Shown in pieces: positions 20,988 through 57,309 of a stretch of 64,000 bases of DNA. Each line of letters begins with the position of its first letter. Positions within the stretch are counted from its first letter, which is position 1. Below the pieces are notes generated by a model. The model made no database searches and was not told the origin of the DNA. It saw only the letters and a list, made by a program, of their open reading frames with translations. The DNA is from Candidatus Obscuribacter sp. GTDB taxonomy: Bacteria > Cyanobacteriota > Vampirovibrionia > Obscuribacterales > Obscuribacteraceae. Both the position numbers and the translations under genes were made by a program. Where the stretch lies: NCBI GenBank assembly GCA_021772095.1, contig JADYXR010000030.1, positions 124,001 to 188,000 on the forward strand, in the 5' to 3' direction.

Positions 20988-21104
20988 CCAGGTTTAGGCG
21001 ACTCTTCGAGCTGCAATGATCGGCACGGCGGATATCAATTCTGGCGCGCACGGTTTCGAACGTAGCGGAGTTACGAAGTTGAAGGTCCATACATTTCCGA
21101 CTCA

Positions 21105-21152
21105 CGCAGTTTGCAGCGCACGCAGTTCGCAGCGCACGCAGTTCGCAGCGCA
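21105..21152. repeat. Three tandem 16-bp repeats
   Basis: Units CGCAGTTTGCAGCGCA, CGCAGTTCGCAGCGCA and CGCAGTTCGCAGCGCA lie end to end, followed by more diverged copies up to about 21205 around a GTTCGA core. They occupy the gap between the MESH1-type gene and the convergent 335-aa exported protein. The period is not a multiple of three and I call no gene here. Confidence 0.75.
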
Positions 21153-21230
21153 TGCGGTTCGAACGCGTGAGTTCGAAACACGTGCAGTTCGAGCAAACCG
21201 TGTTGGGACGAGTTCCAAAACTTGTACGTT

Positions 21231-34133: not shown

Positions 34134-34216
34134 GCCGAAGTGGTGAAATGGCAAACACGCTACGTTCAGGGCGTAGTGAGCGCAAGCTCTTGTGGGTTCA
34201 ACTCCCACCTTCGGCA
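34134..34216 (+). tRNA. tRNA-Leu (anticodon CAG)
   Basis: Acceptor arms GCCGAAG (34134-34140) and CTTCGGC (34209-34215) with discriminator A. The anticodon stem CTACG/CGTAG encloses a TTCAGGG loop, giving anticodon CAG (Leu). A long variable arm of class II type (GAGC..GCTC) follows, then a T arm with GTTCAACTC. 83 bases, with no encoded CCA. A run of eight T lies at 34219-34226, immediately before infC. Confidence 0.95.
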
Positions 34217-45991: not shown

Positions 45992-47224
45992 TTAGTTAAA
46001 CAGCTTGCTCAACCAATTCGAATTTCGACGATTGTTGTTCCGATCATTGCGATCACGGCGATCGTGGTGGTCATTACGATCGTATCGACGGTTTTGACCG
46101 TAGGAATCATAATAATTCCGATTGCCATATCTGCGATCGTAATCATTTCCACATTGATCTTGTCTTCCGCCGGAGTAGCGCTCGTAGCCATCACCACTAT
46201 AATCGTACGATCGATCGTATCCGCGATCTGAGCGGTAAATTTGTTGACGTTGATATGGATTGCAATCGTTTCCATACCGATTTCTATCCAGTGCGGAAAG
46301 CAAAAACGGTGCGACAAATCGAGTCACAGTGCCAATCGTTTCGCCAAGGTTGAAACGTTTGCGCGGTTCCTCGCTTCGTTCGCTTCGTTCACCCCTATCG
46401 CTTCTATCGTTTCGATCTCGGTCTCTATCTCTAACGCTACCGCGATCATCACGACTGCTACTTCTTCTTGAATCACTGTCCCGATCACGATCGCGATCAC
46501 TGCTGTGATTTTCTTTCTTACGAGTTTTTCCATCGGAACTGTCTTCGTGCGATCGTTTTTTCGGCGAATCACCATCTTTTGATTTGCGACTTTCGCTCGA
46601 ACCGACTTCTTTGGATGAGTCTTTCTTATCGCTCTTCTTCTCTAAATTCCCGCCTTTCTTTTTCTCGTCCGGTTGCCGCTCCGATTTTTCTACTTCGCCG
46701 ACAAGAAACGATTTGCCATTCATGCTCCGGCTCCATACATCGCCGTGAAAAGATGCCAGTCGGTCGTCCTGGTAGCGCTGTTGTTTAAAGCTCCCATCGC
46801 CCGAGCGCGATGCGCGCATCACGACTTGCTCGGCTTTCTGTTGATCCAAACCGTAGCAATGCAGCAATGTGCTGTCGCCGACTTTTTCGGTTTCCAATCT
46901 AAACTGACGCGTGGTGCCGTCTTTGTCCTTCATCGAAAACTTCTCGACGCCACCATCCGCTAACTTGCCTAAGGCGTTGAGCCGAGCCGTCGCTGTGGTC
47001 GCTTTGCTTAGTTCCTCAACTGTTTTCGCAATCGCTTTATCATCGAGGTTACCGACGATTTTGCAATCGCATACCGCCGTCTGCCCTTTGCCGTCCTGGT
47101 GTTTCGCGTTAGCCTCCTTCCAATCATCTTTATTGATTTGAACTTTAGGCACATCGCGTTCCCCGCCAGGAGTTTTATTCGGGGCATCGGCGGGTTTTGG
47201 AGGAGTGAAGGCTTTGTCGGACAT
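45992..47224 (-). CDS. Arg/Asp/Ser-rich protein of unknown function
   Basis: 410 aa from the ATG at 47224; a longer in-frame start at 47281 adds residues with no support. Residues 1-185 are a folded-looking domain ('VCDCKIVGNLDDKAIAKTVE', 'FRLETEKVGDSTLLHCYGLD') and residues 190-320 are Lys/Glu/Ser then Asp/Arg/Ser repeats (RDRDRD, SRDDR, SDRGERSE) like eukaryotic RS/RD tracts. A hydrophobic patch follows (about 320-335), then a Tyr/Arg/Asp/Asn-rich tail ('YDRRYGNRNYY'). No signal peptide is seen. An RNA-binding or condensate-forming role is conceivable but not shown. Confidence 0.65.
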   Translation of the reverse strand: MSDKAFTPPKPADAPNKTPGGERDVPKVQINKDDWKEANAKHQDGKGQTAVCDCKIVGNLDDKAIAKTVEELSKATTATARLNALGKLADGGVEKFSMKDKDGTTRQFRLETEKVGDSTLLHCYGLDQQKAEQVVMRASRSGDGSFKQQRYQDDRLASFHGDVWSRSMNGKSFLVGEVEKSERQPDEKKKGGNLEKKSDKKDSSKEVGSSESRKSKDGDSPKKRSHEDSSDGKTRKKENHSSDRDRDRDSDSRRSSSRDDRGSVRDRDRDRNDRSDRGERSERSEEPRKRFNLGETIGTVTRFVAPFLLSALDRNRYGNDCNPYQRQQIYRSDRGYDRSYDYSGDGYERYSGGRQDQCGNDYDRRYGNRNYYDSYGQNRRYDRNDHHDRRDRNDRNNNRRNSNWLSKLFN

Positions 47225-47281
47225 ACGGAGAATAACCTCAGATTCGTGACCCCCTGAGAGTACCGAAAAAAGTCTGAACAA

Positions 47282-47770
47282 GGTCTGAACTGCTCTGCCG
47301 AAACTACGAAGGATGCCACAAATACACAGCTGCAGGCACTCGTTCGTCCACCCTGCCGTTCACGCTTGGTCCACTTGCATCCACGCTGGTCCACCCTTGC
47401 GTTCAAGTTTGGTCCACCGATTTCAAAAAACGCTGTGAAACGCAGTTTTAGAAATAAGGGAGCGCGCAGAATGACGGCTTCGCGAAAAATACCCGCGTTC
47501 CCTCTGCAGTGTTGAATATCTATTAGATATCCGCGCCACTACCGGTGGAGGCACTTAAGAACCCAAGATGCTAGCCAGTTCAGACTCCATTCGCTTGACA
47601 ATAAAATTAGAGAACACTCATGAAACATAAATTGGAGGCGGCCGTCTCTGAGAGAGTAAGTGAAACACGAAACACGAATGGTATACGAAAAGGCGGTCTC
47701 TGGCTGTTCCCCCACAGTTTGATCGCCATCTGAAGGTTTACTTCCCGCGTCCGACACGCGAAAGTGCCAC
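47282..47770. other. About 490-bp gap: repeats and hairpins, no supported gene
   Basis: GGTCCAC words recur at about 47370-47417. GAATATCT/AGATATCC is an inverted repeat near 47513-47532. CGCGT/ACGCG forms a small stem near 47748. A TTGACA at 47595-47600 has no good -10 box. It leads into the strong hairpin at 47771. The small open frames do not look like protein. Confidence 0.45.
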
Positions 47771-47815
47771 CTAGAACGCCCTAAGCACTCCCCGTGCGAA
47801 GGGGCGTTCTAGTTT
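47771..47815 (+). terminator. Strong double hairpin with TTTG
   Basis: CTAGAACGCCC (47771-47781) pairs perfectly with GGGCGTTCTAG (47802-47812), with an inner GCAC/GTGC stem, followed by TTTG. It would end a plus-strand transcript from the gap upstream. Confidence 0.65.
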
Positions 47816-48746
47816 GTACAATTATTCGAACTCGCTGGGAAGACATCACTTGCAAGACGATCATAAATACGATCAGGCAGACAATCAAAAAGACGATCGT
47901 TTAGACGATCCGAAAATCGATCAGACGAACGATCATCGAGTCGATCAATCAGAAGATCATCTTGTCGATCAAATAAAAGATCATCTTGTAGATCAAACAA
48001 GAGATCGTCCAGACGTTCATACAAATGATTCGAAAGTCGATACGTCAAATTTTTCGACAAGCGCGCGTCCGCGTACCGGCGAAGCGATTCAAAAGTTTTG
48101 CCTTCTCATAGTATTGCTATGCACCGTGGCAATTACCTCACTAAATGTTCTCCCCGACTTACTCTTGCATGCGCCTGCACAAACGTGGCGCGTTGAAAAG
48201 TCCGATGTGATCATCGTGCTGGGCACGCCTGCTAACAAAAAAGGGAAAGCTGGTCCAACACTACGCGAGCGTGTTTTGAAAGGAGTCGAACTTTTGAAGG
48301 ATGGCTATGCTCCATACATAATGTTTACCGGTGCCGCGGCGCACAATGGCTTCGTTGAAGCGGAAGTAATGTCGGACTTAGCCAAAACAAGAGGCGTCGA
48401 CGAGTCGCAAATTGTTCTGGAACCAGAAGCAAAAAATACTGCGCAAAATGCGTTTGACTCTGTCGCCATCATGAGAAAGCGCGGGTGGAAATCTGCAATT
48501 GTGGTAACGTCGGCGGCTCACATTCGCCGCTCTAATTTTATTTTTTCGCACTATCCGATCAAATACAGCGTCATCGGTTGCGAAGATCCTCAAGAGCAGT
48601 CACTCTACGATCGCCTTGTGTTCGACCAGCGCGAGAAGTTTTATTTGCTAAATGCACTGATAACGAGACAGCCCTCATCGTGGGATCTCACTGAGAGCCA
48701 GGCCGCAGAGTTGAAAAAAATGGAACAAAGTCCTGAAGATAAATAG
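47814..48746 (+). CDS. YdcF/DUF218-like membrane protein with Asp-rich repeat leader
   Basis: 310 aa if the TTG at 47814 is used; a TTG at 47850, with GGGA nearby, would give 298 aa. The N-terminal 65 residues are a four-residue repeat with Asp in the first position, encoded by a 12-bp GATC-phased DNA array. A span (about residues 97-117) precedes a DUF218 domain with 'VIIVLGTPANKKGKAGPTLR', 'YIMFTGAAAH' and 'NTAQNAFDSVAIMRKRG'. YdcF/SanA-like proteins act at the envelope, with unknown chemistry. The true start is unclear. Confidence 0.8.
   Translation: MYNYSNSLGRHHLQDDHKYDQADNQKDDRLDDPKIDQTNDHRVDQSEDHLVDQIKDHLVDQTRDRPDVHTNDSKVDTSNFSTSARPRTGEAIQKFCLLIVLLCTVAITSLNVLPDLLLHAPAQTWRVEKSDVIIVLGTPANKKGKAGPTLRERVLKGVELLKDGYAPYIMFTGAAAHNGFVEAEVMSDLAKTRGVDESQIVLEPEAKNTAQNAFDSVAIMRKRGWKSAIVVTSAAHIRRSNFIFSHYPIKYSVIGCEDPQEQSLYDRLVFDQREKFYLLNALITRQPSSWDLTESQAAELKKMEQSPEDK
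47859..48050 (+). repeat. 12-bp periodic array with GATC in nearly every unit
   Basis: GATC occurs at exactly 12-base steps at 47859, 47871, 47895, 47907, 47919, 47931, 47943, 47955, 47967, 47979, 47991 and 48003. The 47883 unit reads AATC, and the last three units (48015, 48027, 48039) have GTTC, GATT and GATA. Sixteen units in all. It encodes the Asp-led four-residue repeats of the YdcF-like protein. Confidence 0.9.
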
Positions 48747-56451: not shown

Positions 56452-57309
56452 ATGCCGAAAAGTTCTCGCTCAGTTTTGACCAGCATCACATGGTCCAGCC
56501 GCTCGTGCGAAAACACGTCGACCAATCGCTCGTACGAAAACACGTCGTCAAGTCGCTCGTGCGAAAACGCGTTCTCGATCGCTATTTTGAAAACTCTCGC
56601 GGTGGCGGCCGGAATGCTATTTTTCGCGGCGCAAACTCCTGCGTATGCCGGTGACTGGGTTGAAGACAAAAGCGCCGACGAGTTCGACTTAACTGCGGTT
56701 CCGTCACTGAATGGCTTAAACAGTAAGAGTTCAACTGGTACGACAAGCAGCACTGGTTCGAGTCAAAGCACACGAAAAAAACATGCGCCATACATGATGC
56801 TGTCCACTCCATCAACGGGCAGTGCAACGTCATCTTCTCGTTCTTCATCATCGGCTTCGGCTCCTGGTGCGAACTCAAAAAAATCTCAAGAGTACGACCT
56901 TGAAATCAGCTCAGATGACTCAGCCAATAGCTCATCACCCACGCGCAAGAAAAACATTCTTTCCCGCGTAGCCGGTGGACCGGCAAAAGCTCTTGGTGTC
57001 ACTTGCGGTGTCATGGTTGGCGTGCCTGTGAGCATCGCCCGAGATACCAGAAAGTACACGGGACAAATGAAGAAGAGCATGAACGATGGACTCGCCGTCG
57101 AACAAACTGGTGACCTGACAGGTCACTTCTGGGCGGGCGCCTCCGCTGTGCCATTCGGTATCGGCAGCGGGCTGGTTCATGGCAGCGTGACCGGGTTCCA
57201 ACGCGCATTAGAACACGGCAAAGCTCAACCGTTCAGCAAAGAATCAATGAGTCTCGGTGCTAAATCCAGGTCGTTGTCAAACCGCCCAGACGGCGCAGAC
57301 AACAATTAA
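56452..57309 (+). CDS. Exported protein with repeat-bearing N terminus
   Basis: 285 aa from ATG 56452. The first 45 residues before the signal-type hydrophobic stretch (about 46-66, ending TPAYA-GD) are a nine-residue repeat encoded by the 27-bp array listed next. The mature part is Ser-rich (85-145), then has a basic/hydrophobic region with 'GVTCGVMVGVPVSIARDTRK' and 'GHFWAGASAVPFGIGSGLVH'. The true start could be the TTG at 56587, just before the signal sequence, if the repeat is untranslated. There is no known family. Confidence 0.55.
   Translation: MPKSSRSVLTSITWSSRSCENTSTNRSYENTSSSRSCENAFSIAILKTLAVAAGMLFFAAQTPAYAGDWVEDKSADEFDLTAVPSLNGLNSKSSTGTTSSTGSSQSTRKKHAPYMMLSTPSTGSATSSSRSSSSASAPGANSKKSQEYDLEISSDDSANSSSPTRKKNILSRVAGGPAKALGVTCGVMVGVPVSIARDTRKYTGQMKKSMNDGLAVEQTGDLTGHFWAGASAVPFGIGSGLVHGSVTGFQRALEHGKAQPFSKESMSLGAKSRSLSNRPDGADNN
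56500..56580 (+). repeat. Three tandem 27-bp repeats
   Basis: Units 56500-56526, 56527-56553 and 56554-56580, each beginning CGCTCGTGCGAAAAC or CGCTCGTACGAAAAC. The period is nine codons, in frame with the exported protein, upstream of its signal sequence. Confidence 0.8.

Follow-up and report, generated by a model that had tools for sequence, protein, structure and literature searches.

Gene content of the locus

The window, that is, the whole stretch of 64,000 nucleotides that was analysed, contains a gene for a DUF218 membrane protein that opens with a tandem array of 12-bp units (Table 1). The ORF listing gave its frame as 47814-48746, 310 aa counted from the upstream TTG. On the forward strand the frame is open from 47775, passes through all sixteen units and continues into the DUF218 domain; the two remaining forward frames are interrupted by stops within the tract. 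The PF02698 match (E=1.2e-26; 93.7 bits, cut-off 27.6) places the protein in the DUF218 family. Using Foldseek, the best PDB match was E. coli YdcF (3ca8, E=6.2e-05), with a modest TM-score of 0.39-0.44 over 191 columns. A first-pass annotation had placed the array at the start of a YdcF-like gene. Against the ElyC equivalog (NF007794) the protein scored 41.9 bits, below the cut-off of 205, and a sequence search of solved structures returned none at E<=0.1. Residues T197, H224, E170 and E262 are invariant in a seven-sequence alignment.

AlphaFold modelled most of the DUF218 domain with high confidence. A single transmembrane segment is predicted (hydropathy 2.54 across 19 residues), corresponding to model helix 75-99. 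By analogy with SanA and ElyC (PMC12176290), this segment probably anchors the protein ahead of a periplasmic DUF218 domain with a role in envelope building, and the repeat extension probably forms a flexible acidic tail on the cytoplasmic side. The N-terminal extension contains 20 acidic residues and 9 Lys/Arg among 66 residues. For the repeat tract itself the model is of low confidence (pLDDT about 45-57), and the helix that it shows at residues 34-50 is doubtful.

Table 1. Features of the DUF218 locus, in window coordinates.
Feature	Position	Strand	Basis
Hairpin with 12-bp outer stem, directly 5' of the gene	47771-47812	+	folding z = -3.9 for 47740-47900
DUF218 (SanA/ElyC-like) coding sequence from its putative start, repeat at the N-terminus	47850-48746	+	ORF, open frame, PF02698
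Sixteen 12-bp units, four-residue xD[H/Q/R/P]x repeats	47856-48047	+	GATC in 12 of the first 13 units
Predicted transmembrane segment FCLLIVLLCTVAITSLNVL	48096-48152	+	hydropathy, model helix
DUF218 domain	48204-48587	+	PF02698 profile; fold match to E. coli YdcF 3ca8

Two usual start codons lie in frame upstream of the array, TTG 47814 and TTG 47850. We infer that translation starts at the latter, because GGGAAG stands seven bases before it and 47814 abuts the hairpin. No ATG, GTG or TTG occurs in frame between the last unit and the membrane segment; therefore, any expression of the gene from a usual start codon would entail translation of the tract. In the related genome G032 the orthologue starts shortly before its membrane helix.

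The hairpin ahead of the gene may be a 5' leader structure tied to it. The region that holds it (111 bases, 47740-47850) is single copy in the genome, which rules out a mobile or repeated upstream element. Hairpins were also observed just ahead of the start of the G032 orthologue (z = -2.1). The only known RNA element in the window at gathering thresholds was a tRNA (34134-34216).

Several other observations were made in the window. The minus strand carries a divergent 429-aa ORF at 45992-47281; it contains low-complexity tracts rich in Ser, Arg and Asp, and Pfam gave no match for it. Further short tandem repeats are found at 47346-47418, 21103-21192 and 56500-56572, with periods of 23, 16 and 27 bp, respectively. 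GGCC is the most extreme of the 16 four-base palindromes, with 85 occurrences against 234 expected from trinucleotides (0.36), a scarcity that possibly reflects restriction-site avoidance.

Distribution of the protein and its extension

With a threshold of E<=1e-20, two of 50 family genomes gave a match to the DUF218 protein, the own genome and G032; neither of the two congeners did. The G032 protein, the sole orthologue in the family, is 58% identical over residues 87-306 and has no repeat tract. A scan of genome contigs yielded 11 relatives. N-terminal regions were compared for six distant ones from Nostoc and Acidobacteriota (L025-L030), the five more distant relatives (L031-L035) being left out, and none of the six has a comparable repeat. 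Because the G032 orthologue and these six relatives lack one, the N-terminal extension looks lineage-specific. When the 50 family genomes were searched with the tract itself, the hits beyond self and its own antisense were two weak ones (E=0.067 and 0.099). Among phages there were three hits to Lactococcus phages, also weak (E=0.06); they were attributed to composition and rejected as relatives of the tract.

GATC recurs at 12-bp steps

GATC stands at a fixed offset in 12 of the 13 leading units, namely 1, 2 and 4-13 (slots 47856-48011). Unit 3 reads AATC in its place, and units 14, 15 and 16 read GTTC, GATT and GATA. The spaced pair GATC-N8-GATC occurs 14 times in the window, compared with 1.8 on average in 100 dinucleotide shuffles (at most 8), and 10 of the 14 pairs fall inside the array tract. 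At period 12, the best GATC count over 13 slots was 12 in the window and 2-3 in 60 order-1 Markov sequences; at the other periods from 6 to 24 the count in the window was at most 7. The sixteen-unit array with GATC at 12-base steps, as originally noticed, was thus confirmed by the unit count, the shuffles and the Markov nulls: the phased pattern is real and lies far beyond chance. Folded as single-stranded DNA, the array gave z = -2.1.

The step of 12 bp had also been equated with about one helical turn, and the array proposed as a DNA-binding target with that spacing. Both ideas fail on geometry. At 10.5 bp per turn, each 12-bp step rotates the site by 51 degrees, amounting to 1.7 surplus turns across 12 steps, and helical phasing of the GATC sites is thereby ruled out.

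The array encodes an Asp tetrapeptide repeat

Translated in the DUF218 frame, units 1-8 read DDHK, YDQA, DNQK, DDRL, DDPK, IDQT, NDHR and VDQS, and units 9-16 read EDHL, VDQI, KDHL, VDQT, RDRP, DVHT, NDSK and VDTS. The array does code for four-residue Asp repeats, the second residue being nearly fixed as Asp (14 of 16 units). GATC appears every 12 bp because this Asp is encoded by GAT and is usually followed by His, Gln, Arg or Pro, with codons that here begin with C. With sixteen units of 12 bp, a multiple of three, and a frame continuous with DUF218, the tract belongs to the coding tandem repeats, which supports the simplest reading offered for it, that of a protein repeat. In the forward frame, dN/dS between units 1-13 was 1.03; therefore, there is no sign of amino-acid constraint outside the Asp. 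A value of about 1 between units fits the regime of relaxed and positive selection on freshly copied protein repeats that is described by Persi, Wolf and Koonin (PMC5120217).

The phased Asp is encoded by GAT in all 14 instances, and the Asp one position earlier (unit position 1) by GAC in all five, a contrast that counts against a pure protein-repeat explanation. Across the 35 ORFs of the window, GAT was used 492 times and GAC 412 times (54% GAT, or 63% before C). From this usage, GAT in every one of the 12 GATC units has a probability of 4e-4, or 2e-3 with the before-C usage, on the assumption of independent units, which fails since tandem units are copies of one another. A rough drift estimate, taken from two other wobble columns, puts the chance of zero GAT-to-GAC changes in 16 units at 0.01-0.25, the value varying with the fraction of such changes that is assumed. 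The exclusive use of GAT is mildly unusual, and GATC may be retained in weak excess.

Phased 12-bp arrays in related genomes

Four-unit phased arrays were searched in 50 family genomes, with CTAG, the reversed GATC, as control. They were present in 13 genomes for GATC, in 16 for GACC and in 8 for CTAG, and forward four-unit matches summed over the 50 genomes numbered 33 for GATC and 37 for CTAG. Arrays of 12-bp units are general in this bacterial family. A genome-wide check for further GATC arrays, which the first-pass annotation had advised, located four GATC array loci in the own genome (C191, C197, C226, C251) and zero GACC arrays. The other long array among them, C191, encodes DPRx repeats with GATCC and GACCC mixed; hence, GATC is not protected there. 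Among 386 phylum genomes, six-unit arrays were found in 20 for GATC and in 3 for the reversed control, an excess that argues against a protein repeat as the sole explanation.

Of the 12 six-unit GATC loci examined, 11 have a longest frame that reads Asp in phase, mostly as Asp-Pro, the exception being L076. The same holds for 7 of the 13 four-unit loci examined (L036, L037, L039, L040, L043, L045, L048). The longest frame of the other six (L038, L041, L042, L044, L046, L047) does not read Asp in phase, and the second-longest frame reads Asp in L038, L042, L044 and L046. Consequently, some GATC arrays are something other than Asp repeats; that most phased GATC arrays elsewhere do encode such repeats adds to the support for the protein repeat.

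Two other arrays were observed in relatives. In genome G028, a long 12-bp array with GACC in every unit lies at a contig end (C147:2-317). In genome G166, a 12-bp array of six units or more (L072, C1:5940213-5940324) is built on GCGATCGCCCAT; its sequence is HIP1-like, yet it encodes DRMG repeats in a 547-aa frame. Titles and abstract openings retrieved on GATC clusters and arrays, and passages of PMC9684165, are not about a coding GATC array of 12-bp units.

Origin of the array

The tract is very probably a lineage-specific coding minisatellite whose phased palindrome is a by-product of the Asp tetrapeptide repeat and not a DNA signal. In favour of this, tetranucleotides other than GATC form 12-bp arrays just as often in the family. 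In-frame expansion of a 12-bp unit at the 5' end of the gene for the membrane-anchored DUF218 protein, by a mechanism that is itself presumed, would have added ~64 mostly disordered, Asp-rich and probably cytoplasmic residues before the membrane helix. Each unit would keep Asp (GAT) and a C-initial codon, giving GATC every four codons, so that the phased GATC would be the outcome of the ancestral unit and of Asp retention. The extension would serve as an acidic, flexible tail whose sequence, the Asp apart, is little constrained. Besides the phylum-wide excess, the codon contrast and the four-unit arrays whose longest frame does not read Asp, it counts against this explanation that expression of the gene and use of a TTG start are both presumed.

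Alternatively, slippage could alter the unit number and thereby the length of the protein tail, making the tract a contingency locus. A coding tandem repeat with a unit that is a multiple of three bases would be suited to this, and a 24-bp higher-order similarity (47917-48006, 80% matches) points in the same direction. However, the array units are strongly diverged from each other, so frequent present-day or very recent slippage is unlikely, and in-frame changes would leave the gene switched on. We regard a contingency locus as very improbable.

That the tract is a cluster of Dam-methylated GATC sites, serving to control the gene downstream or to mark hemimethylated post-replication DNA, is very improbable. 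The search for a Dam-type methylase, also advised at the outset, did identify two Dam-family matches of the Pfam D12 class in the own genome: the C241 methylase (187.9 bits) exceeds the curated cut-off of 114.85, and the C97 methylase (114.5 bits) falls just below it. The array can thus be called a methylation target in a trivial way, since Dam-family methylases are encoded in the genome, but nothing links them to the tract. The GATC columns are the best conserved columns of the 12-bp unit and, as noted, GAT alone is used at the phased Asp, both of which would suit such a cluster. On the other hand, the array lies inside a coding frame rather than in a promoter region, and the window as a whole shows no GATC enrichment (372 observed, 433 expected). 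Dam-family matches occur in 43 of the 50 family genomes and this array in one, so their presence says little about the tract, and G031, a genome 83% complete, has a GATC array but gave no Dam match. SeqA (PF03925) had no match in the own genome, whereas the E. coli control was found by the same search.

Also very improbable is an Asp repeat that doubles as a DNA device, its twelve closely spaced Dam sites at the start of the gene providing a post-replication methylation state that influences expression of the envelope gene, with GAT kept while the unit drifts. Overall, a DNA role for the GATC pattern is unlikely. A constrained gene on the opposite strand (47809-48105, xDRL repeats), with the forward frame incidental, can practically be dismissed: it is open from stop to stop over 98 codons and, of the six frames, shows the smallest dN/dS between units (0.56), but this lies within the column-permutation null, where shuffling the non-GATC columns produced an equally low value in 13% of trials for that frame and in 38% for some frame, the family search beyond the locus was weak and gave no convincing relatives (best E=0.017), and the forward frame holds a known domain.

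Read as a coding minisatellite, the tract carries a caution, in that a phased palindrome can result from a short peptide repeat: an Asp tetrapeptide repeat coded by GAT and followed by His, Gln, Pro or most Leu/Arg codons gives a 12-bp GATC array. An acidic tail restricted to one lineage, carried by a DUF218 envelope protein, is of modest interest.

Comparison with known systems

SeqA binds GATC clusters at oriC of E. coli. Dense GATC sites are common to those clusters and to the present array; here, however, the sites are coding and phased at 12 bp, and SeqA was not found. With HIP1 (GCGATCGC) of cyanobacteria the array has the GATC core in common, and HIP1-rich cyanobacteria carry GATC- and CGATCG-specific methylases, according to PMC4390886. 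HIP1 is an interspersed octamer, whereas the array is tandem and phased. GCGATCGC occurs 3 times in the window, and HIP1 identity of the array is ruled out by its sole CGATCG, which is flanked by A and T.

SanA and ElyC of E. coli are DUF218 envelope proteins with a Thr-His-Glu triad, as described in PMC12176290. A DUF218 domain and a predicted membrane anchor are present in these proteins and in ours, and the invariant Thr, His and Glu are compatible with the triad by residue type. In contrast to them, the protein scores under the ElyC equivalog cut-off and has an N-terminal repeat. The Asp-led tetrapeptide repeats of related genomes (DPxx, DQTK, DPRx) share with the array a 12-bp unit, Asp followed by a C-initial codon and one GATC per unit. 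The present repeat differs in that its third residue is mostly His or Gln, its units have diverged further from one another than those of most arrays observed, and the tract sits before a membrane helix.
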